Shown: positions 160-12,711 of the stretch, piece by piece | Numbering within the stretch: the first letter of the stretch is position 1 | Layout: every line of letters starts with the position of its first letter | Source: a bacterium | GTDB taxonomy: Bacteria > CSSED10-310 > JAJRTK01 | Direction of reading: 5' to 3' | Assembly (NCBI GenBank): GCA_024278345.1 | Contig: JAJRTK010000137.1 | Span: forward strand, 1 to 33,829 | Length of the DNA: 33,829 nt | Position numbers and translations under genes: made by a program | Notes under the pieces: model-generated | The model's database searches: none | What the model saw: the letters and a program-made list of their open reading frames with translations, nothing else | What the model was told of the DNA's origin: nothing

Positions 160-3100
160 TCACCGTGGGATGGGGTCTTGGACGAGCTGTTCCCATCGGC
201 CTTCGGCGGGAACGGGGAAAATGCATTTCATGATCGTCCCTCTGCCGATCTCAGACTCGACTTGAACGTGGCCCCGGAGGGATTGGACCATGCGGTGGAA
301 GAGCCACAGTCCGACGCCAGCGGCGCCTGGTTTCGTAGTGAAGAAGGGATCGAAGACTCGACCGAGTTGATCGGGAGGAATCCCGACGCCGTGATCCTCG
401 ATCTCGATGACCACTTGGCCGCGAGCTGTCGCTTCCCCAAGCTCCGGTTTCACGTCCTTTTCGTACCGGCATTCAAAGCGGATCGATTGCCCCGGCGCAG
501 AGGCCGCAATTGCGTTTTGCAGCACCCCTTGCAAACCCTCCACCACCTGTTTCCGTTTCAAACACATCTTCGGCGCCGCGGGATCGATGGAGAGATCGAG
601 CTCTAGGTTTGCCCGGGCGATTTGCGTTGCGTTCGCCGAGGCCACTTCCTGGATCAGTTCCGAAATTCCCACGACCTCTTCTTCCGAGGAAGAACTGGAG
701 AAGTTGAGCTGCTCGTAGGTGTAGCTTTCAGCGCCTCCCACCACTCGTAGGATCTCATCGACGTACGTCGATTCCTCGGTGCCATCTTCGCATTCGCGGC
801 GGAGGCCCTGAGACAAGATTTTGATCCCGGACAGGAGATTCTTCATCCGGTGGGCGACCTGGGCTGCAAGCTGGCCCATGGCTGCCAGGCGTCGCGACAA
901 CTCGAGTTCGGCCCGCAGACGTTTCACCTTTGTCACCTCCTCGATGACAGCGGTGACTCCAATGGTTTCTCCGTAGCCATCGTGTAACAGGGAGGTCGTG
1001 ATATCGAGCCAGCCGCCCTGGACTTCTCCCGAGCGGCGGTAGGGAAGCTCCCGGTGAACTGTCTCGCCCCGGGCGAAGGTCGTGGCCAGCACCGACCCCA
1101 GCTCGGAGTGGGTCCGACGATCCAGCTCGGCCGCCGCCATTTGGCCCAGAATCTCCGACTCTGAGATCCCAAGGATCTTCTCTGCGTCGCGGGAAAAGTC
1201 CCGCACACGACCGCCATGATCCACAACGATGATTCCAACGCCGATCCCCTCCATGATACTTTTGTACCGCTCGTAGAGCCCCACATTCCGGAGAGCCACC
1301 GAAGCGTGGTTGGCAATGGCTGACAGAAGATCGAGATCCCGATCACAAAAGAGCTTTCCTTCGGAGCTGGAGGTCAAGTATAGGGCCGCCTCGCTTCTGT
1401 CTCCCACCGTGAGCGGAACGCAGAGCACGGAGTGGATGTCCAGGACCTCCAGGGAAAGCGTCGTGGCGAGAGGCGCCCCGTCCGTCTGCGTTGAGAGCAG
1501 AGGGCGGCCTTCTTCCAGGACGCGCCCCACGATGCTGCTGGAGAAGGCCTCGAGCTCTTCGTCCCGGTAGCCGTGGCTTGCCACGATTTCGTAGTTGCCA
1601 TCGACCCCAGCCGCCGAGATCAGAAGGCCGCGTTCGGCTTGCACGGACTCCAGGGAAAGCTCCAGGATTCGGGTCGTGAGAAGCTTGTAATCCAGAATGG
1701 GGGAGATGAGCTGACTAATCCGGTAGAGCTGGTAGATGTCCTCGGATGGATCTTCTGGGCGCCGCAGCTTGGTGGCCGTTTCTTCTTGGAGATTTGCTAC
1801 TCGCCGTTCCACGTCCTCCAAGAGGCTCGAAGCGCCTAGAGCCTTGAAAATATGTTCCGCCTTCTTCAGCGTCTCGATGGCTTGCCGGTTGTCGTGGGTT
1901 TGGCTGTAGTAGAGGGAGAGTGCCACGTAGACCTTTCCCAGCTCCGGCTCGCAACCTAGATCCTTGCCGATCCTCTCCGCGCGGCGGAGAAGGTCGAGCC
2001 CCGATCCGTGGCGGCCACTGGTCAGCTCCACCAGCCCTCGCAGGCGCAGAGAACAGGCGAGCTCTCGCATGTTATGACGGGCTTCGAAGGTTGGCTCGAT
2101 TTCGTCGAGCATCTTCGTCGTGTCCCCGATCTGCCCTGACATGAGCGAGACCTCGGCCTGGAGAAGCCGAGCCTCGCCTGCCGCACGCTCCAGACCGCAG
2201 TCGGAAAAAATCGTGTAAGCCTTTCCAAGCTCGGCCATCGCCGATGGCCATTCTCCCTGTCGGAGATGGGCGTAGCCCTGGCCGATATGGACATGGGCAA
2301 CCCAGCCCACCGAGCCCATCTTCTCCAGAGCCGTTCGGCAGCGAGCGAGCTGAGCGCGGCCATCCGCGATCAGCCCACGGTCCAGCAGCATGAGAGCCAT
2401 GAAGAGCTCTGCTTCACTCACCCCATGCTGGTCGCCAATCGATTTCGAGAGCTGAGAACCCTTGCTCAACAGATCCCAGGCCTTGTCCCAGTCCGACGTG
2501 AGGCGATAAAGGGCTGCGCCCCAGTTCGTGTAGACCGCCGCTTGGCCATACCGAAAGTTAATCCGTTCAAAAAGGCGGAGTGCCTTTTCCGAATAATCGT
2601 TGACCAACGCGCTTTGGCCCAGCACCTCGTAAGCCTGGCCAAAGATCCCAAGGGCTTTTCCGATATTCAGCAGATCATCGTGCTTTTCGAAAAGACGCAG
2701 GGCTTCTCGCACGTGCTCGATTGCCTCCGATGCCATCCCCAAGGCAACGTTGCAGAAGGCCATCAGCAGGTTCAGCTCGCCCACCTCATACGCGTCCGGT
2801 GTGTCGGAGAGAAGCTGGAGGGCGTGGACCGTGTTTTCCAGGCTGATCCGCACGTTGCCGCGGAATGCTTCGGCTCGGCCAATTTCCGTATAGAGGCGGG
2901 CGAGGTGTTCTGTTTCCCCTTGATCCGCCAAATCGTCAAGGCAGATCTTGAAATGGCGGAGCGCTTGCTCGAACTTAGAGCTCATCAGGTTGCAGCGGCC
3001 CACCTTGAGCTCGATCCTTGCCCGTTGGGTCAGCGGAAGCCGCTCCCGAAGCAGCTTTCCGTAGTGGAGGATCGCTTTTTTACTATCACCTCCCCGAGCG

Positions 3101-5439
3101 TAGATGTCCCCAGCTTTCTCCAGAACCTCCAGGTACTCTTCAAAATATCGTTCTCGCCCCTGCGCCTCGATCTCTTCGATGACCCGTTCATAGTAGTTGA
3201 TGGAGTTTTGGAAGGCGAACAGCTCCGCCGCTGTCCGAGCGGCGCGGATTCCCCACTCGATGGCACGCCTTGACAGCCGCCCCTCCAGACAGTGGTGAGC
3301 GATGGCGCCGAACCAGCCGGAGTCGCCTGAATGGCGTGAGATCAGGATCTCCGCAAACCGTACGTGCAAGAGGCGCCGCAGCATCGGGTCGAGCTTCTGG
3401 TAGATGACTTCGCCGATCTTGGTGTGGGAAAAGAGGTTTTTCGGGCTGTGAGAGCGATCCTCGACGGCAACCAGTTGTCGGTTCTGGAGCTCCAGAAGCG
3501 CCGATTGGAGCTGTTCCGGGTGGTGGCCCGAGACTTCGCTCAGAAGCTCGAGCTCGATGCCCTGGCTGAAAACCGCCATCGTTTTCAGGATCTCAAGCTC
3601 CAGCTCCTCAAGGGACTCCAAGCGCTTGGTGATCGTGTCGATGATGCTCCCCGGCACTTGAATCAAATCGAGATCCGGGAGCTGGAGATCCCAGTCATCA
3701 CCGCGCAGCTCGATGATCCGCTCGTCGGCCAGATACTTGATGAGCTCCTCCACGAAAAAAGGGTTTCCCTCCGTTTCCTGATGGATCATCTTCGTCATTC
3801 GGGGGGGCTGGTAGTTCAGTCCCAAGAGTGACTGGAGGAGTTGGCCCGTTTCATCCTTGGAGAGCCTGTCAAGCTCCACGGGGCCCGTGAGAGGGCCTTC
3901 CTTTGCCATCTCAAGGAGTGCCCCCAGTGCAGGAGACGCTTCTGTGCCGGCACCCTCAAAGACCAGGAGCAAGAGGATCGCGTGATTGTGCAGGCGGGCG
4001 GCAAGGCCGGTGAGAAACTCGATGGTCTCGTCATCTGCAAGCTGCAAGTCGTCAAGCGTGATCACATAGGGGTGCCCTGTGGAAAACTGGAGGAACACAT
4101 CCGTCAACTGCTCTAACACCTGGCGCTGGCTCGACGGAGAGACCGCCTCGGTGTCGGAGGAAGATCGCCCCGCGGCCAGCAGAGGCCCGAGCATCTCCTT
4201 CCGGTAGTTTTCGACGAGCTGTGGTTGGCTTTCTTCAAAGCGGTGCAAGAGTTGGCCAACCAGCTCGTTGATCTCTTGGTAAGGAGATCGAGCGCGGCGG
4301 AAACTCCGCGTGTGGAGGACGACTTCCCCCTCAAGCTGCAGGAAGAGGCGGAATTCCTCCAAAAGGCGCGTCTTCCCAATTCCCGCCTCACCGGTGACGA
4401 GAACCATGCTCCCCCGGCCCTGGCGATAGGCGCGGTACGCTTTTTCCAGGGAGCTGAACTCCTTTTTGCGGCCCACGAACTCGCTGGAAAAAACAAAGTT
4501 TGCCTGGAACGGCCGTGTCTGCTCGCCTATAATGTACGAGCTGACTTCCGAGAGGGCCGCAGCCACTTCATGGGCCGTTTGGTACCGTCTTGACGGACGT
4601 TTTTCCAAAAGCTTGAGGACGATATTCTCAAGCTCCAGAGGTACATCGGATCGGAGCTGCCGCGGCGGCGGCGGCGGTCGCCGCAGGTGTTGTTTCACCA
4701 GCTCAGTCGTCGTTTCCGCCTCAAAGGGCCTCGCCCCCGTCATGAGCTCGTAAAGGATGACCCCCAGCGAATAGAGGTTTGCCCGCAGGTCCACCGCCCT
4801 GCCCATGGCCGCCTCCGGCGGCAGGTAGTGGAGCCAAACCGGAACTTCCGTCTCGGTCAATTTCAGCTCGGTTTCCATCCCCAATGTGACAAAGCCAAGT
4901 CGGAGGTCTGTCGCTTCGTACGCCGCCGAATCAACCTCTTGGGGTGGCTCGGCCACAAGCATTGATCGAGGAGTCAGGTTGCCCAGAATGATGCCCCGGG
5001 AATGGATGAAGTCCAGGGTCTGGCAAATCTCCCACGCCACCTGGATAAGCTTTTTGAAATCACAAGGCTGGAAGTAGTTGTGGAGGAACTGCCCCGGGCA
5101 GAGGTCCATGGTGAAGAAATAGCAATCCCCCCGCACCACCTCGAAGTCGTGAACTCGGACGATATTGGGATGCCGGAGGTCCGAAAGCAGGCGAAACTCC
5201 TGCTTGAACCGGGCGATGGCTCGCTGATCTTCGGTCCAGTTTAGGAGCCGCAAAGCCAGGTCTTTCTCCAAGATCCTATCGCGAACCTCGAAGACATGGC
5301 TCTTCTGCTCGCCCCAAAGACGGCGCACCAACTTAAACCGTTTGCCGATCTTTTTCGGCGAAACCACCCCGGCGGCCGAGCGCCGAGTCTCCAAAGAGAA
5401 GGACAACTCCTGGGATACGCCTTTCGAGCTGCTCATCAT
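160..5439 (-). CDS. Pseudokinase-AAA-TPR-GAF-PAS sensor histidine kinase
   Basis: A cytoplasmic hybrid sensor of about 1759 residues. Domain order is a Ser/Thr-kinase fold (about 35-300), an AAA/NACHT-like ATPase (Walker A GEAGIGKT, Walker B VITLDD), a long helical TPR region (roughly 700-1200), GAF, PAS, then a histidine kinase with H-box AHRMKNLL (His near 1530), DHGVGI, FDPFFTTK and GVGLW. The kinase fold looks dead: the VAIK lysine is Arg (LALRLL), HRDLKPxN reads LGNLTPRSM and DFG reads GFV. The histidine kinase half looks intact and NtrB-like. No response regulator lies in the window. The track start (GTG 5484) has no ribosome site and overlaps a promoter-like sequence. ATG 5439 sits 9 nt after GGGAGG, and ATG 5436 is also possible. 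It lies downstream of the GST/GH113 pair on the same strand. Confidence 0.93.
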   Translation of the reverse strand: MMSSSKGVSQELSFSLETRRSAAGVVSPKKIGKRFKLVRRLWGEQKSHVFEVRDRILEKDLALRLLNWTEDQRAIARFKQEFRLLSDLRHPNIVRVHDFEVVRGDCYFFTMDLCPGQFLHNYFQPCDFKKLIQVAWEICQTLDFIHSRGIILGNLTPRSMLVAEPPQEVDSAAYEATDLRLGFVTLGMETELKLTETEVPVWLHYLPPEAAMGRAVDLRANLYSLGVILYELMTGARPFEAETTTELVKQHLRRPPPPPRQLRSDVPLELENIVLKLLEKRPSRRYQTAHEVAAALSEVSSYIIGEQTRPFQANFVFSSEFVGRKKEFSSLEKAYRAYRQGRGSMVLVTGEAGIGKTRLLEEFRLFLQLEGEVVLHTRSFRRARSPYQEINELVGQLLHRFEESQPQLVENYRKEMLGPLLAAGRSSSDTEAVSPSSQRQVLEQLTDVFLQFSTGHPYVITLDDLQLADDETIEFLTGLAARLHNHAILLLLVFEGAGTEASPALGALLEMAKEGPLTGPVELDRLSKDETGQLLQSLLGLNYQPPRMTKMIHQETEGNPFFVEELIKYLADERIIELRGDDWDLQLPDLDLIQVPGSIIDTITKRLESLEELELEILKTMAVFSQGIELELLSEVSGHHPEQLQSALLELQNRQLVAVEDRSHSPKNLFSHTKIGEVIYQKLDPMLRRLLHVRFAEILISRHSGDSGWFGAIAHHCLEGRLSRRAIEWGIRAARTAAELFAFQNSINYYERVIEEIEAQGRERYFEEYLEVLEKAGDIYARGGDSKKAILHYGKLLRERLPLTQRARIELKVGRCNLMSSKFEQALRHFKICLDDLADQGETEHLARLYTEIGRAEAFRGNVRISLENTVHALQLLSDTPDAYEVGELNLLMAFCNVALGMASEAIEHVREALRLFEKHDDLLNIGKALGIFGQAYEVLGQSALVNDYSEKALRLFERINFRYGQAAVYTNWGAALYRLTSDWDKAWDLLSKGSQLSKSIGDQHGVSEAELFMALMLLDRGLIADGRAQLARCRTALEKMGSVGWVAHVHIGQGYAHLRQGEWPSAMAELGKAYTIFSDCGLERAAGEARLLQAEVSLMSGQIGDTTKMLDEIEPTFEARHNMRELACSLRLRGLVELTSGRHGSGLDLLRRAERIGKDLGCEPELGKVYVALSLYYSQTHDNRQAIETLKKAEHIFKALGASSLLEDVERRVANLQEETATKLRRPEDPSEDIYQLYRISQLISPILDYKLLTTRILELSLESVQAERGLLISAAGVDGNYEIVASHGYRDEELEAFSSSIVGRVLEEGRPLLSTQTDGAPLATTLSLEVLDIHSVLCVPLTVGDRSEAALYLTSSSEGKLFCDRDLDLLSAIANHASVALRNVGLYERYKSIMEGIGVGIIVVDHGGRVRDFSRDAEKILGISESEILGQMAAAELDRRTHSELGSVLATTFARGETVHRELPYRRSGEVQGGWLDITTSLLHDGYGETIGVTAVIEEVTKVKRLRAELELSRRLAAMGQLAAQVAHRMKNLLSGIKILSQGLRRECEDGTEESTYVDEILRVVGGAESYTYEQLNFSSSSSEEEVVGISELIQEVASANATQIARANLELDLSIDPAAPKMCLKRKQVVEGLQGVLQNAIAASAPGQSIRFECRYEKDVKPELGEATARGQVVIEIEDHGVGIPPDQLGRVFDPFFTTKPGAAGVGLWLFHRMVQSLRGHVQVESEIGRGTIMKCIFPVPAEGRWEQLVQDPIPR

Positions 5440-5455
5440 TCCAGACATCCTCCCT

Positions 5456-5484
5456 ATACTATCCCGAAATCCAGGCTGTGTCAC
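5456..5484 (-). promoter_or_regulatory. Possible sigma70-type promoter for the histidine kinase
   Basis: On the minus strand GTGACA (5484-5479) is followed after exactly 17 nt by TAGTAT (5461-5456), a fair -35/-10 pair. Transcription would start close to the GGGAGG ribosome site, giving a very short leader. This is a pattern match only. The gene may also be read from the upstream GST/GH113 unit. Confidence 0.3.
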
Positions 5485-5615: not shown

Positions 5616-6704
5616 TCAATCCTCTTTCCAGACTTTGCGGAGAAGGCGTTGCAGGCCTGGTGTTTCCAGGGAAAAATCCCTGGATCGCCCCGGGCCCGGG
5701 AACCATTTCCACAAGAAGGCTCCGACAACCGTCGGTTCTCTTTCGATGGCATTCAGGGCTGATTCCAGACAGGCGGCCTGGATAGCTTCGGCTTCTGGAC
5801 CATCCACCTGATACTCCCAGGGCGCAAAAGGCGCACGGAAGGCCTGGTTGTAGCCAAGCTCGGTGAAGACAATTCGCCGGCCTGTCTGCTTGGAGTATCG
5901 CTTCAGCCGGAGCAGGATGCGGCGCCAACCGGAATCGATGGCCTCTCGGGTCACCGGACTGGCGGCGCCAGCCTCCACAAGCGGGAAATAGGCTTGGATA
6001 CCCACGATATCCAGTGCATCCCAAAAGGGCACGCGCTCATAGTCGGTCCAGTTCGCGCCATAGGTCAAGGGGCCGCGAAAAACCTCCCGCACCCGCCGGA
6101 TGATTCGCCTCCATTCCTCCTCGTGTCCCAGGGTCTTGTCCAGCTCGGTTCCCACGACGAAACCGTCCGCCTGGCGGCAGATGCGGGCCAGGTTGACGAT
6201 CCAGGTCTCGTAATCTTCGAAGAAGCGGCGCCATTCCCGGTCGGTCTGAAACTCGATCTCGCCGCGCCACCGGAACCGGCTTCCCCAGTAGCCCAGGTGA
6301 GGCTTGATGAGCATCTTGAGGCCCAACCGGTGAGCTTCAACGATGGGCCGGGTGAGCCACCGGGGCGGTCGCTTTGGATCGTAGTGCTCCAGACCACCCA
6401 GCCCCGTGTCTCGACCGATCCAAGCGTAGGGATGGATGGCGATCCAGGTGGCGCCCAGTGCCTTGAGCTCGGTCATGGTCTCCACCATCTCGTCGGTTCC
6501 CCACTCGGGTCCCCAGGTGGGGCAGGAGACGGTGATTCCCCGAATCGGCGCCTTATTGGAGCTTTTCCCCGGGGAGATTTCCCCGGAGGCCACCGGAGAG
6601 TCCACTGGATCCCAGCGCGAGGAGCCGCCGGCCAAGGTCGTGGCCAGGAGTGCTATCAGGAAAAGCCCCCATCTTTGGCCGGCCAGCTTATGGGCGGGCT
6701 TCAT
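5616..6704 (-). CDS. GH113-like glycoside hydrolase, exported
   Basis: A 362-residue protein with a hydrophobic N-terminal segment (WGLFLIALLATTLAGGSS, about residues 12-29), so probably secreted or membrane-anchored. The rest reads as a TIM barrel of the GH113 (beta-mannanase-related) type: GATWIAIHPYAW, KPHLGYWG, VVGTELDKT (candidate acid/base Glu187) and RRIVFTELGYNQ (candidate nucleophile Glu282). Both glutamates fall where the family keeps them, so it is probably active on a beta-linked glycan; the substrate cannot be read from sequence. I moved the start from the track's 6749 to ATG 6704, because that codon overlaps the GST stop (ATGA) and the signal segment follows directly. This implies translational coupling with the GST gene. 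Confidence 0.85.
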   Translation of the reverse strand: MKPAHKLAGQRWGLFLIALLATTLAGGSSRWDPVDSPVASGEISPGKSSNKAPIRGITVSCPTWGPEWGTDEMVETMTELKALGATWIAIHPYAWIGRDTGLGGLEHYDPKRPPRWLTRPIVEAHRLGLKMLIKPHLGYWGSRFRWRGEIEFQTDREWRRFFEDYETWIVNLARICRQADGFVVGTELDKTLGHEEEWRRIIRRVREVFRGPLTYGANWTDYERVPFWDALDIVGIQAYFPLVEAGAASPVTREAIDSGWRRILLRLKRYSKQTGRRIVFTELGYNQAFRAPFAPWEYQVDGPEAEAIQAACLESALNAIEREPTVVGAFLWKWFPGPGRSRDFSLETPGLQRLLRKVWKED

Positions 6705-7402
6705 GGGGCTTGCGCCGGGGCCGTGCCCGCATCCACACGATCCATCCAAGCCTTCACTTGAGGTTTCGCGGCGATGAGTCTCGCTCCCTCGGGGGTCCCG
6801 CCAATACAGGAAAGTTGGGCAAAGACCGCGATGTCTCCAAGAGTCAGCCCATCACCCAGCAGCCAGTCGCTTCCGTCGAGCCATCCGGCGAGGCTTTGGA
6901 TGTGGCGCCTGAGATCGGCGAGGATAGCCTCTGGCGGCTTCTTTCCAAGACCTTGCGACTGGAGGATTTTGTCGATATATCGTGGAACTGCTTGCCGGGC
7001 GATGAGTTTAAAAAACCAGTTCTCCCGGGCCGCCAGGATCGGCAGCCAACGTTCCACATTCGCCGGAATCCCGAAGCGAAGCCACATTTCGTGGAAGTAG
7101 AGAGCCTCGTCAGCCCAATCCTCCAAGACATGGCATTGAGCGGCGAGCTTAGGTTCTTTGGGGATGAGGGGCGGATCTGGGTAGCGCTCTTCCAGATAGT
7201 GGGCGATATCGGTGGAATCGGTGATGAGCTTGCCTTCGTGCCGGAGGCAGGGCAGCTTGCCGATGGGGGTGATCTTTTTCAGCCGCCACAGCGTGTCGGA
7301 GGGGCTCAGGTTTTCCGCTTGATAGGGGACGCCCTTGACGTGAAGCACGCGCCTGATTTTGTCGCAAAAAGGGGAAAGCTCGTATTGGTAGAGGATGATC
7401 AC
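6701..7402 (-). CDS. Glutathione S-transferase family protein
   Basis: A 233-residue cytoplasmic protein with the two-domain GST layout. The N-terminal thioredoxin-like fold (about 1-78) has SPFCDKIRRVL at the first helix, the cis-proline segment GKLPCLRHEGKLITDSTDIAHYLEERYP and the DST glutathione-contact motif. The all-helical C-terminal domain ends with WLLGDGLTLGDIAVFAQLS, the conserved N-capping region. SPFC could supply a catalytic Cys or Ser, so conjugation, thiol transfer and a non-catalytic role are all open. It starts at GTG 7402; the ribosome site is weak. Its stop overlaps the glycosidase start. The start is only 48 bp from the divergent TonB receptor gene, so promoters must be packed in that gap. 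Confidence 0.9.
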   Translation of the reverse strand: MIILYQYELSPFCDKIRRVLHVKGVPYQAENLSPSDTLWRLKKITPIGKLPCLRHEGKLITDSTDIAHYLEERYPDPPLIPKEPKLAAQCHVLEDWADEALYFHEMWLRFGIPANVERWLPILAARENWFFKLIARQAVPRYIDKILQSQGLGKKPPEAILADLRRHIQSLAGWLDGSDWLLGDGLTLGDIAVFAQLSCIGGTPEGARLIAAKPQVKAWMDRVDAGTAPAQAP

Positions 7403-7450: not shown

Positions 7451-9556
7451 ATGGGAAGGATTTTGCGACGCGGAATCGCCGCGATGCTGCTTGTGCCATG
7501 CCTGGCCGGTGCGACGGAGCTCCTTGAGGGAACCGTGACCACCTCTACGGGGCTTCCCGTTGCTGGTGCCTGGGTGGGGCTTGCTGAGTCAGGTCTGGAA
7601 ACCCACACCGACAGCCGGGGCCATTTCCGGTTTCCCAAGTCGCTTTTTCCCTCGACCTTGACGGTTGTTCATCCCCGTTTTCTGGCGCGGACGTTGCTCT
7701 TGGACCGTCTTCCCAAAGAGCCCCTGGTCATGACTCTCACGGCGAAACAGCAGATGTTCGAAGAGATAGTGGTCTCGGCGGAACGCGCCAACAGCAGTTT
7801 TTCTCCGCCCAGCGGCGCCACGTCCTCCGTCCGTCCCGCCGAGCAGGCGGTGGAACCATCGACTCTCACCGAAGCACTTCAATCCGTGCCCGGCGTCGCC
7901 GAGAACGGCCAAGGTGGCCTATTCCAAACATACTCAATCCGTGGTGTTTCGCGCCAGCGCGTCTTGACCATGGTGGGGGGGGTTCAGCTTGTGGGCGAAC
8001 GCCGTGCCGGCGTCTCTGGCTCCTTCATCGATCCCCAGCTCATGGGGGATATCGAGGTCCTGCGGGGCCCCTCTTCCACTCACTTTGGATCGGGCGCCTT
8101 GGGCGGCGTGGTGCAGATATTCCCCAGCCAATTCACGGGATGGACCGCCAGCGCGGGTTACGATTCCAACGGCCATGAAGCCAACGCCACCCTTGGCTGG
8201 GGAGATCGCGTTTGGTCCGGAGGATTTGCTACACGGCGGGCTTCCAATGCCAGGGCTCCCGATAGCAGCGAGCTCAATTCGGGTTTCACGCAGCTTTCGG
8301 GCTTTCTGAACCGCAAGTTCGCGCTGGGTTCGGGACAGGCCGATCTTCTCATTGTGGGATCGTTGGGCAAGGATATCGGGAAATCCAACACCGATTTTCC
8401 CAAGAAGACCACAATCTACCCAAGGGAGCGCCATCTTATTGTTCGTTTCGAAGCGGAGTTTCCCGTGGGGCTTCGATTCAAGATCTTTTCTCACCCCAAC
8501 GACCTAGTGACGGAAAAGGTCTCCGACAAGAGTCTCAATCGCGTTGAAAACCAGGCCTTCGATTCCGGCGCCACGTTGGAACAGGAGTTGGAAATCGGGC
8601 AGTTCCTCAACTTGCAGGTGGGGGTCGATTGGTTTTCCCGCCGAGGGGTCACTGCTCGGGAGACCGGATCCGAGGTCCCTCCCGGCCTCGAAGAGCTCAG
8701 GACCCTGGATGGAGCATCTCGGGACGACATCGCACTCTTTGCCACCAGCCGTTGGAGCTTGGGCGGCGTTCAACTCCTGGCCGGTGGCCGACTGACTTAC
8801 CAAACGCAGGGCAATGCCGGCTGGTCGCGGCGCGCCGATACCGCCTGGAGCGGATTCGCCGGAGCGGTTCTTCCCGTGGGAAAAAGTATCGAGCTTGCCG
8901 CCAATGTGGGGACCGGCCTGAGGTTTCCTTCCTTGAGCGAGAGGTTTTTTAGCGGGTCCACCGGCCGGGGCGGTGTTGTCGGCAACCCCGACCTCGTTCC
9001 CGAACAGTCCCTCGACTTCGACTTCGGGATACGCTGGTTTGGAAAAAGTTTCTTTCTTGGGCTTTCCGCTTTTGACAAACAGGTGGAGCACTACATCGAG
9101 CGGATCGAAATCGATCCCGATCTGCTCACCTATGTCAACCTGACTTCGGGAACGATCCGTGGCCTGGAGCTGGAGGGAGCGTGGCAGCCGGCTCGCGGAT
9201 GGAACCTTTTCTGGGTGGGGCATCTTATGCGCGGCCGATCCGACGACAGCAAACCCTTGGCCGATCTCCCGGCCCATCGACTTCTTCTTGGAGCAAGTCG
9301 GGGAGCTGCGCGGTGGAAAGCTGATACCTCTCTTCAGATGAGGGCATCGAGACAGGAGCCTGCCAGCGGAGAAAAGCCGATACCAGCAGCCTATTTGTGG
9401 AATGTGGCCGCCAGGCTCCAAATGTCGGGCGACCTATGGCTGACCCTTAGCGGAGATAATCTCCTGAACCAGAGCTACTACAGCTCCGCCGACAGAAAGG
9501 CGCCGCTGGCGCCCGAGCGGAGCGTGGCCGTTGGCTTTCGCTGGACTGCCCGATGA
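7451..9556 (+). CDS. TonB-dependent outer-membrane receptor
   Basis: A 701-residue outer-membrane beta barrel for energised uptake, possibly of a metal chelate, cobalamin or carbohydrate; the ligand is not readable. Features in order: signal peptide (MGRILRRGIAAMLLVPCLAGA), a carboxypeptidase-regulatory-like domain (VTTSTGLPVAGAWVGLAES..), a TonB-box-like EEIVVSA near residue 100, a plug domain (TEALQSVPGVAENG, YSIRGVSRQRVLTMVGGV, IEVLRGPSSTHFGSGALGGVVQI), then the barrel with the typical NPDLVPEQSLDFDFGIRW segment and a C-terminal strand ending VGFRWTAR. The ORF track begins at 6650, but the real start is ATG 7451 with GGGAG about 10 nt upstream. The stop overlaps the next gene (ATGA), so the ATPase is probably co-translated. 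Confidence 0.95.
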   Translation: MGRILRRGIAAMLLVPCLAGATELLEGTVTTSTGLPVAGAWVGLAESGLETHTDSRGHFRFPKSLFPSTLTVVHPRFLARTLLLDRLPKEPLVMTLTAKQQMFEEIVVSAERANSSFSPPSGATSSVRPAEQAVEPSTLTEALQSVPGVAENGQGGLFQTYSIRGVSRQRVLTMVGGVQLVGERRAGVSGSFIDPQLMGDIEVLRGPSSTHFGSGALGGVVQIFPSQFTGWTASAGYDSNGHEANATLGWGDRVWSGGFATRRASNARAPDSSELNSGFTQLSGFLNRKFALGSGQADLLIVGSLGKDIGKSNTDFPKKTTIYPRERHLIVRFEAEFPVGLRFKIFSHPNDLVTEKVSDKSLNRVENQAFDSGATLEQELEIGQFLNLQVGVDWFSRRGVTARETGSEVPPGLEELRTLDGASRDDIALFATSRWSLGGVQLLAGGRLTYQTQGNAGWSRRADTAWSGFAGAVLPVGKSIELAANVGTGLRFPSLSERFFSGSTGRGGVVGNPDLVPEQSLDFDFGIRWFGKSFFLGLSAFDKQVEHYIERIEIDPDLLTYVNLTSGTIRGLELEGAWQPARGWNLFWVGHLMRGRSDDSKPLADLPAHRLLLGASRGAARWKADTSLQMRASRQEPASGEKPIPAAYLWNVAARLQMSGDLWLTLSGDNLLNQSYYSSADRKAPLAPERSVAVGFRWTAR

Positions 9557-10230
9557 CAATAGGAACGGAAACGGCGAGCAGCGGCAGGATGCGCACCCCA
9601 TGGAAGTGGAACCGGCCTCGGCCACCCTTTGAGCATCTGAACCTTCGGCGAAATCCCTTCGGAGAGATTCCACTGGACGAAAGGCCTGCTCTGGCAATTG
9701 TCGATGTGAAGCCTCTGCTAAAGTTGCTTTGGCCATCGCCGGTGGCGATCCAATTCATCGGGGAAGCAGGGCGAGGGAAGACGACCCACCTGCTGGCACT
9801 CCGGGTCCATTTTCCCCATGCTCCCTACGTCCATCTTCCAGAAGACGAACCTCTACCGCTTATCCCGCGGGCTCCCGTCCTGTTTATCGACGAGACCCAA
9901 CGCCTCTCTCCCTGGCGCCGGCGGCGGCTATTTCGTCAGGCGGAGATCCTTGTGATGGGAACCCATGAAGATCATTCCAGGGAGCTCCGGCGGGCGGGGA
10001 TTCGCTACCACTGCTTTCGCGTGGGCGGACTCTCTTCTGAGCGCCTGAGTGCCATCATCCGGCAGCGGATCGAGGCTGCCCGGCGAGGGCCGGGTCCCGT
10101 ACCGACCCTTGGCGGAAGCTCCGGACAGGCGCTATTGGCATGCTACAAAGATGATCTCCGAGCCATCGAGCACGATTTGTACGAACTCTTTCAGAAGATT
10201 GACGGCGTTGGAGAGATAACGATAGTCTGA
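9553..10230 (+). CDS. P-loop ATPase, ExeA/GspA-like
   Basis: A 225-residue soluble ATPase with FEHLNLRRNPFGE near residue 27 (the NPFG entry motif resembles ExeA/TniB-type AAA proteins), Walker A GEAGRGKT (70-77) and Walker B VLFIDE (109-114), followed by a GTHEDHSRELRRAG sensor-like segment and a helical lid. It is shorter than ExeA and has no peptidoglycan-binding tail or membrane segment. The start overlaps the TonB receptor stop; an internal ATG at residue 13 is also possible. The membrane-arrestin gene follows 51 bp later in the same direction. Its role is unknown; location suggests work connected with the receptor or the arrestin-like protein. Confidence 0.75.
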   Translation: MTIGTETASSGRMRTPWKWNRPRPPFEHLNLRRNPFGEIPLDERPALAIVDVKPLLKLLWPSPVAIQFIGEAGRGKTTHLLALRVHFPHAPYVHLPEDEPLPLIPRAPVLFIDETQRLSPWRRRRLFRQAEILVMGTHEDHSRELRRAGIRYHCFRVGGLSSERLSAIIRQRIEAARRGPGPVPTLGGSSGQALLACYKDDLRAIEHDLYELFQKIDGVGEITIV

Positions 10231-10281
10231 TGGAAGGCGTTGAGCTTTTTGTTGGCGAGATTCAGGCGAAAGGACTGACCG

Positions 10282-11874
10282 ATGGCCAAATGTGACTTGC
10301 GGATTGATATCGATGGGGATCGGCGGACCTACCACGGAGGCGAGAAGATCTCCGGAACGCTCACGGTCCGGGTCAACGCCAAGTGTCAGTGTAACGGGCT
10401 CACGCTCACGCGTCTTTGGCGCACCCATGGGCGAGGGAACAGGAGCCAGGGAAGCGAGCAGACCAAAGATCTCTTCAAGGGGGAGTGGCAGGCCGGCCAG
10501 ACTTTCGCTTATCCTTTCGAGTTCACGGTTCCTCACAGGCCCCTGACCTACCATGGGCACCTGCTGAATATCGACTGGTACATCGTGGCCCGAGCCGACA
10601 TTCCATGGGCCATCGATCCCAAGGCGGAAGAAGAGTTTTTTATTGAGCCGGAGGAGTGGGAGCCGAAAACCAAGGTGGAAGCTCTCCCGGGACAATCCTA
10701 TCGCCAGGAGTTCAAGACGCCTGGCCGGTATGAGTTTTGGATTCTGGTCTTTTTTATTGCCTTCCTTGCCTTGATGGGGCCCGTGGGTTGGGTGATCGCC
10801 GTGATCGGATTGATCATTGCCTTTGCCGGTTTCAACATGTGGAGCCGGTTTGCCCAGCGGAAGATCGGGAATGTGATCATTGAGGTGTCGCCTTCCTCAT
10901 TGTCGCCAGGAGAAACGCTGACCGCCAGGATCAGCTTTGTTCCACGGAAGAACCTGCGCCTCAACAAAGTTGTGGGCGTCCTCACGGCGAAGGAAGTCGT
11001 GGTCAGTGGCAGCGGAACCCACAAGACGACCCACACCCACACGCTGTTGGAAGAAGATGTGCGGTTTTTGGGCAAGGGGAACGTGGCGGCGAACCGGACG
11101 CTGCTCCTAGAGAAAGAAATTCGCCTTTCGTCAGAGGCCCCTCCCTCCTTTTCGGCACCTTCCAACAATCTGAACTGGTCCTTCGACTATCGGGTGGATA
11201 TTCCCCGCTGGCCGGACTGGACACGGAGCGTGGAGCTTCAGGTGTCCATTCCTCGTGCCGAAAGACCGGCCGGGAGCGGTGTAGAGGAAGCTGAAATGGC
11301 GTTGGAGGAAGTGCCTCAAGGTGTGTATCGAGGCGAGTCTCTCCCGGAGGAGATGTCGGAGCGGGTGGAACGCGTTGCTTCCACCAGTCTACAAACCTCC
11401 GCCCCCTCAAGGCTGGAGGAGCCCCGGGCTGTCGCTGCCGCATCAGTTTTGCCGCCGCCTTTCGTGGAAAAGGATCCCTTTGCCCCCCCGGAGCCGGAGC
11501 AGCCAGGCTCCGGGAAGGAGTCGGAACCCGATCTGGGAGCGATCCTCCAGGCGGTCCGCGACGCAAGTTCCTTTGGCGATGAGCGCCAGAAGCTCATTGC
11601 TTCCGCCATGGGCCAGAGTTTTTTTCTCACTCTCCGGGTGGGCCGAGTCGAGCGAACGACCTCTCTTGATTGCCCGGAGCATCTTCGGGGCGGGCAAACT
11701 GTTATCGGTCGTATGGAGGGGCTTTTCGGACAGGAGTTGGCGATTCGGTTTCCACAGGAACGCAAGGACGAGGCCAGGAAGATCAAGAGGGGTTCTGACG
11801 TCGAGTTCCGGGCAGTCTTGACTGGGTGGGACGACCTGTTCGAACGCGCCGAGCTGGAACTGATGCCATCCTAA
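10282..11874 (+). CDS. Membrane protein with two arrestin-like domains
   Basis: A 530-residue protein. Residues 1-135 look like an arrestin/Spo0M-type beta sandwich (GGEKISGTLTVRV, FAYPFEFTVPHRPLTYHGHLLNIDWYIVARADIPW). Residues 152-186 form a two-helix membrane hairpin (EFWILVFFIAFLALMGP / GWVIAVIGLIIAFAGF). Residues about 198-345 repeat the arrestin pattern (VSPSSLSPGETLTARISFVPRKN, YRVDIPRWPDWTRSVELQVSIP). A proline-rich linker (about 350-415) leads to a C-terminal domain ending near RGSDVEFRAVLTGWDDLFERAELELMPS. Both sandwiches should face the same side of the membrane if the hairpin spans it. A GAAAGGA site precedes ATG 10282. Function is unknown; bacterial arrestin-like folds are usually scaffolds or signalling adaptors. 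Confidence 0.8.
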   Translation: MAKCDLRIDIDGDRRTYHGGEKISGTLTVRVNAKCQCNGLTLTRLWRTHGRGNRSQGSEQTKDLFKGEWQAGQTFAYPFEFTVPHRPLTYHGHLLNIDWYIVARADIPWAIDPKAEEEFFIEPEEWEPKTKVEALPGQSYRQEFKTPGRYEFWILVFFIAFLALMGPVGWVIAVIGLIIAFAGFNMWSRFAQRKIGNVIIEVSPSSLSPGETLTARISFVPRKNLRLNKVVGVLTAKEVVVSGSGTHKTTHTHTLLEEDVRFLGKGNVAANRTLLLEKEIRLSSEAPPSFSAPSNNLNWSFDYRVDIPRWPDWTRSVELQVSIPRAERPAGSGVEEAEMALEEVPQGVYRGESLPEEMSERVERVASTSLQTSAPSRLEEPRAVAAASVLPPPFVEKDPFAPPEPEQPGSGKESEPDLGAILQAVRDASSFGDERQKLIASAMGQSFFLTLRVGRVERTTSLDCPEHLRGGQTVIGRMEGLFGQELAIRFPQERKDEARKIKRGSDVEFRAVLTGWDDLFERAELELMPS

Positions 11875-11958: not shown

Positions 11959-12711
11959 ATGCGTCAGATGGCACCTCATACAGGATTCAAGGCCAAGTGG
12001 CTTCCGTCGAAGGCAGAGACGTTTCGCTACCGGCTGACGCCGAGGCCAAAACCACTGTACAAGTCAGTGGTGGATGCCGTGCAGCTTTTCGGTGGAGTCA
12101 ATTTCGCCTGAACTCCCGCACTGTTCAAGACACGAACCGAAAAGGCGCCAGATGGGACGCGCCTTGTCTTTGATACAACATTGGAGCTCCAATACGGAAT
12201 CTCCCGAGAAGTTACCCGCTTCCGGGTGGATAACGGCGTACTTCAGACCGAGTTCTTCGATCGCACGGTTCACAACACCGATGGAGACCTGGTTCGAGAG
12301 GAAAAAGTCGTCTTTCACGAAGGCCCCTACCAGTTTCCCCGTGACCTCTACCCAGAGGTGTACGCTCCATTCCTCATGCGCTCGGAGCGTCTGCCCACCA
12401 GCAGGCGCAGCTTTCATGCCTGGATTAGTGATCGCTTTGTTGTCCGGATCTACTTCGAACTCCAGAAACGGTGTGTCAAGATCCGTTCCTCCGCTGGCTT
12501 GTACAACTGTAGCCAGCTCCTCATGTACCCGGACATCAATGACTGGGTCCCCTTGGGCAACCTGGTCATGGCCTTGGCCAAGCCGATTCTTCCACGGTAT
12601 CATATCTGGATCGCCAACGATCCTCCCTATCCCGTTGTCCGCTTCGAAGGAGCCTACGGCCCGCCAGGTGCTCCAGAGGTCGTCGTCGATCTCCTGAGTT
12701 TCGAGGCGTGA
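11959..12711 (+). pseudogene. Conserved hypothetical gene broken by an in-frame TGA
   Basis: One reading frame runs from ATG 11959 (or GTG 11914) to 12711 with a single interruption, TGA at 12109-12111. Before it: ETFRYRLTPRPKPLYKSVVDAVQLFGGVNFA. After it the same frame continues as TPALFKTRTEKAPDGTRLVFDTTLEL and then the 176-aa ORF of the track (12181-12711), which starts only at an unconvincing TTG. The C-terminal part (YHIWIANDPPYPVVRFEGAYGPPGAPEVVVDLLSFEA) has the look of a conserved uncharacterised family, though I cannot name it. No frameshift is needed. It is a recently inactivated gene, a sequencing error, or a gene using a weak downstream start. TGA is an ordinary stop elsewhere in the window, so recoding is unlikely. 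Confidence 0.6.

Follow-up and report, generated by a model that had tools for sequence, protein, structure and literature searches.

A membrane-anchored arrestin-fold protein paired with an AAA+ ATPase gene, an apparently undescribed membrane machine of many environmental bacteria

In eukaryotes, proteins of the arrestin fold play a central part in the handling of receptors and cargo. In bacteria, Spo0M is soluble and carries no membrane segment, and the AAA+ ATPases of the ExeA/GspA type possess a C-terminal peptidoglycan-binding domain and have GspB as their partner. Spo0M was given as the prokaryotic branch in an arrestin phylogeny of 2008 (PMC2515105), while PspA/flotillin-YqiJ-AAA+ operons have also been described (PMC11237479). 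No paper that connects bacterial arrestins to an ATPase or to DUF3592 was found in the open-access literature, and, as far as this literature and the searched family libraries go, the ATPase-arrestin pair reported here is apparently an undescribed bacterial membrane machine of many environmental bacteria.

The DNA analysed here, 33,829 nucleotides in full and referred to as the window, had been covered by a preliminary description made from the sequence alone, which proposed that a TonB receptor, a small ATPase and a membrane-arrestin protein together form an undescribed system. The coordinates and the order it gave for the three genes are correct, and their features are as follows:

7451..9556, + strand: TonB-dependent receptor, an upstream neighbour in the window and not a conserved part of the ATPase-arrestin system
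9553..10230 (start may be 9589), + strand: AAA+ ATPase of 225 aa, partner of the arrestin protein and found only in arrestin-bearing genomes
9760..9783, + strand: Walker A motif GEAGRGKT of the ATPase, with G73, G75 and K76 invariant in 50 sequences
9880..9894, + strand: Walker B motif LFIDE of the ATPase, with D113 invariant and E114 present in 41 of 50 sequences
10282..11874, + strand: membrane-anchored bilobed arrestin-fold protein of 530 aa (Pfam, AlphaFold, Foldseek)
10291..10647, + strand: N-lobe arrestin sandwich, residues 4-122, with the motifs WRTHGRGN and YHGHxxNxDWYxxARADIPWA (AlphaFold)
10723..10845, + strand: hydrophobic hairpin between the lobes, residues 148-188 (AlphaFold, alignment of relatives)
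10876..11244, + strand: C-lobe arrestin sandwich, residues 199-321 (AlphaFold, Foldseek, profile comparison)
11533..11871, + strand: accessory OB-like C-terminal domain, residues 418-530, in a subset of relatives only

The arrestin gene starts 51 bp after the ATPase gene. Its product scored 34.8 bits with Pfam Arrestin_N, above the cut-off of 24.9, and fell just below the cut-off with Arrestin_C (25.1 vs. 27.7), while at E<=0.01 the two models matched 59 and 53 of 60 relatives, respectively. An AlphaFold model based on a 60-sequence alignment (pLDDT 84) placed two sandwiches on either side of a membrane hairpin, with the N-lobe at residues 4-122, helices at 150-195 and the C-lobe at 199-321, followed by a disordered linker and a small domain at 418-530; the central hydrophobic block was present in all 60 aligned relatives, with a mean length of about 50 residues. 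In a Foldseek search against the PDB, Vps26 ranked at the top (E 9e-17 over both lobes), followed by ARRD-6, TXNIP, arrestins and Rgp1, and a profile of the relatives compared with solved structures retrieved TXNIP, ARRDC3 and VPS26C, as well as Spo0M weakly. Two arrestin-like sandwiches split by a membrane hairpin, as read from the sequence beforehand, are thus borne out, and the structure predictions that had been suggested as a check returned an arrestin fold for this protein and an AAA+ fold for the ATPase. In the libraries searched (Pfam, NCBIfam, PADLOC), the arrestin protein is covered solely by generic clan models.

Among solved structures, Vps26 of retromer, the alpha-arrestins ARRDC3 and TXNIP, and Rgp1 are the best structural and sequence matches, and they share with the bacterial protein two beta-sandwich lobes in one chain. 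The bacterial protein differs from all of them, however, in the hairpin between the lobes, in the AAA+ ATPase gene as its partner and in the existence of a split-gene version. Spo0M is likewise a bacterial member of the arrestin clan, and 43 of the 60 relatives matched its family PF07070 at E<=0.01; the window protein itself stayed below the cut-off (16.2 vs. 23 bits) and departs from Spo0M by its membrane hairpin and its ATPase partner.

The OB-like C-terminal domain is a third domain of the arrestin protein that the preliminary description missed. Planctomycetota also encode this domain by itself or as part of other membrane proteins (L140-L145); it carries the motif VERVExTxGFDxPExLRDGRTV...WDDLFKRA and has no Pfam name. 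In Psychrobacter sp. I-STPA6b (L089, 8983-9959), the arrestin gene consists of two overlapping frames of 95 and 231 aa, which represent a frameshift, a sequencing error or a natural split.

The open frame of the ATPase, 9553-10230, overlaps the receptor stop via an ATGA. Since relatives of the ATPase begin close to an 'LNLRxNPFGE' motif, translation may truly start at the in-frame ATG at 9589, in which case the receptor and ATPase genes would not overlap as noted earlier. The AlphaFold model (pLDDT 93) matched AAA+ cores such as clamp loaders in Foldseek (E 3e-6); Walker A, Walker B and the AAA+ core fold are all present. Across 50 relatives, the NPF motif, R172 and Y210 are invariant together with the Walker residues listed above, with T137-H138 and R203 almost invariant. 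Weak similarity to NACHT, AAA_16 and AAA_22 was observed; no family in Pfam, NCBIfam or PADLOC reached its cut-off, and NCBIfam gave no match to the window ATPase at all.

The ATPase had also been called ExeA-like, a label of which the distant common ancestry stands (hhalign against ExeA-type ATPases, E 7e-8, probability 94.6%) and the family membership does not. With ExeA/GspA-type enzymes, including TIGR03015, it shares an NPF-like motif near the N-terminus, a Walker A motif and a Walker B motif of the form hhhhDE(A)Q, whereas it has neither the GQPEL and GIPR motifs nor the additional C-terminal domains, and an arrestin takes the place of GspB as its partner. TIGR03015 was not among the 25 families listed for the 50 ATPase relatives at E<=0.1, and neither a peptidoglycan-binding Pfam domain nor a transmembrane helix was found in the 225 residues. 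With distant homology alone and no model match among those listed, membership in the ExeA family was rejected, and profile comparison makes the ATPase a distant cousin of that family, outside it.

A single-protein scan of genome contigs found no close relatives. Scanning about 85,000 species genomes with a three-sequence profile gave 72 loci, mostly from Planctomycetota and also from Myxococcota, Gammaproteobacteria, Gemmatimonadota, Deinococcota, Lentisphaeria, Chlorobiales and Ca. Schekmanbacteria (taxon names are those of the records). The ATPase gene lies beside the arrestin gene in 61 of 72 non-redundant loci, the window included, and in the order seen in the window in 60 of the 61, the exception being one fused locus (L028) where the order is reversed. 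Reading frames of the two genes overlap at 44 loci, with overlap lengths clustering at 8, 14 and 26 bp, and are separated by 0-100 bp at another 14; three of the 11 loci that lack an adjacent ATPase gene are at or near contig ends. Rhodopirellula baltica, Stieleria and Rubripirellula are cultured carriers of the pair.

Whole-genome surveys tied the ATPase still more closely to the arrestin. Among 386 genomes of relatives, the ATPase occurred only in the three with a strong arrestin match, and in the 11 of 343 Planctomycetota genomes that encode it the arrestin was always present, 10 times as an adjacent pair and once (G517) on a separate contig. An ATPase without an arrestin was never encountered in the two surveys, while five genomes carry an arrestin with no detectable ATPase. 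Dependence thus seems to run in one direction, with the ATPase needing the arrestin, and the adaptor may sometimes act alone. The two proteins diverged in parallel (r 0.76 over 44 pairs, against a shuffle maximum of 0.18), a pattern that shared ancestry also yields. With adjacency across phyla, an ATPase confined to arrestin-bearing genomes and no library name or paper found, the proposal of an undescribed ATPase and membrane-arrestin system is strongly supported, and we are nearly certain that the system exists and that its genes are paired.

The receptor does not belong to this unit. It is an ordinary TonB-dependent receptor (Pfam Plug, E 1e-19; TonB barrel, E 8e-35) whose nearest models are of the heme/hemoglobin type, with scores far under their cut-offs, and no homologue of it was found near the arrestin genes at the other ~70 loci, the window being the sole case. 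It was therefore excluded from the conserved unit, which refutes its proposed role as a third component; of the three-gene co-occurrence that was to be looked for in other genomes, only the ATPase-arrestin part recurs.

Weak matches led to a second architecture, in which the arrestin lobes are encoded separately. The first gene codes for a membrane protein that combines transmembrane helices with the arrestin C-lobe and, in most cases, with one or two DUF3592 domains; the second codes for a separate N-lobe protein of 118-190 aa and the third for a divergent ATPase with the motif GPHGxGK[ST]. This order was observed in 17 of 20 fetched loci of the Planctomycetota survey, as well as in L092 and L093. 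Profile comparison of the split with the fused form (hhalign) gave E values of 4.7e-19 for the ATPase, 4.1e-22 for the N-lobe and 2.1e-26 for the C-lobe, and on these alignments the relationship of the two forms is solid. Fused or split, the ATPase gene is next to the coding sequence of the N-lobe, except in the reversed fused locus. The naturally split arrestins are L108-L127, L092 and L093, to which L090 and L091, with split lobes and no recognised ATPase, can be added. In L094 (2806-6339), a Band_7 (SPFH) gene stands among C-lobe/DUF3592 genes, and upstream of these lie protein-kinase genes in the opposite orientation.

As to what the pair does, we tentatively favour, at somewhat short of even confidence, a membrane adaptor-ATPase in which the arrestin lobes hold a membrane-protein client and the AAA+ partner acts on the client or on the complex. 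No signal peptide was recognised in the arrestin protein (no dedicated predictor was used) and the hairpin reads as an insert that crosses the membrane twice; a cytoplasmic position is therefore expected for both lobes, a soft prediction given that the sequence around the hairpin has only a weak net positive charge. The two lobes would lie flat on the inner membrane, as Vps26 does in retromer, and would serve as the adaptor that recruits the client. That an arrestin scaffold ties the ATPase to the membrane, as had been suggested before, is a reasonable inference, and the position of the ATPase gene next to the N-lobe coding sequence in both forms suggests the N-lobe as the predicted docking side, so that the ATPase would probably dock there. 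The enzyme may then use ATP binding or hydrolysis to load the client or its complex, to release it or to remodel it, and where the lobes are split, DUF3592, which is likely periplasmic, may convey the condition of the envelope. Our best guess for the overall role would be the assembly or sorting of protein complexes of the inner membrane or envelope. It is possible, and rather doubtful, that this widespread arrestin/Vps26-type machine with its own AAA+ ATPase, fused or split, fulfils in prokaryotes the function of arrestin/retromer-style client capture, with ATP-driven remodelling at the inner membrane.

What makes a switch for envelope stress or signalling the main rival is that DUF3592, where the lobes are split, could sense the envelope. 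The ATPase would then be a regulatory (ATP-state) switch, and the membrane arrestin, joined in the split form to a periplasmic DUF3592, would sense envelope conditions and relay the state. The fusion of DUF3592 to the C-lobe through transmembrane helices, the small single-domain ATPase and its weak likeness to NACHT, AAA_16 and AAA_22 all agree with such a switch, but the pair carries no output domain (kinase, DNA-binding or nuclease), no regulator recurs nearby and the fused form has no periplasmic domain, and we consider it unlikely. A secretion or assembly pair resembling ExeA-ExeB (GspA-GspB), with an ATPase powering an outer-membrane complex through the wall, the arrestin as the membrane half and the TonB receptor as the client in the window, would draw on the distant homology to ExeA-type ATPases and on the gene contact with the receptor in the window genome. 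It appears improbable, as the ATPase lacks the wall-binding domain and the transmembrane helix, no ExeA-type family is among its listed matches and the other loci have no TonB receptor of the window kind.

Neighbouring genes bear on the remaining alternatives. The neighbourhood comparison found no third gene common to the loci, which suggests no single fixed pathway, and most of the other genes around the pair are housekeeping genes unrelated to it (PurQ, RIO kinase, SpoU methylase, PrmA etc.). Directly downstream of the pair in L007 lie genes for YqiJ_N and Band_7/flotillin proteins, and a Band_7 gene stands beside the C-lobe gene in L094, so SPFH/flotillin neighbours occur in two separate lineages and provide two separate hints at membrane organisation. 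An organiser of membrane microdomains acting together with flotillin/YqiJ-type proteins would fit these two loci and the known flotillin operons, which likewise combine a membrane protein with an AAA+ ATPase (PMC11237479); yet flotillin-type neighbours appear at just two of about 80 loci, no PspA was seen at the arrestin loci, and the published operons contain no arrestin and their description does not mention one, which leaves this reading quite improbable. Highly improbable is a pair serving anti-phage defence or a mobile element: distribution is patchy and an ATPase with a membrane partner would suit it, but PADLOC returned no convincing match (only marginal ones, which cover 21-25 residues of the hydrophobic segment at E about 0.006), the ATPase had no match in plasmids and the arrestin none in phages, and in Pirellulaceae the pair keeps a stable syntenic position beside PurQ.

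A membrane-anchored bacterial arrestin with a dedicated AAA+ ATPase, spread over several phyla and sometimes with split lobes, would represent a membrane machine of a new type, and it would bear on the origin of the arrestin/Vps26 fold and of its adaptor role.

Several candidate partners were discarded along the way. Flotillin/YqiJ was rejected as a regular partner, Band_7 being adjacent only at the two loci named above; a recurrent 266-aa downstream gene in Pirellulaceae, considered as flotillin/YqiJ-type, is PurQ (GATase_5), and a 564-aa neighbour gene was rejected as a flotillin. GH113-like glycoside hydrolase genes lie near the arrestin genes in the window (5616-6749, - strand) and in L092 (8492-9583, + strand), possibly by chance, and with only these two cases the glycosidase was rejected as a partner. 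The arrestin gene is followed in the window by an open frame of 176 aa (12181-12711, + strand) with no Pfam or NCBIfam match, and at 160-5484 (- strand) the window encodes a protein of 1774 aa in which a Ser/Thr kinase start, an ATPase, repeats, and GAF-like and histidine-kinase-like parts can be discerned by eye.
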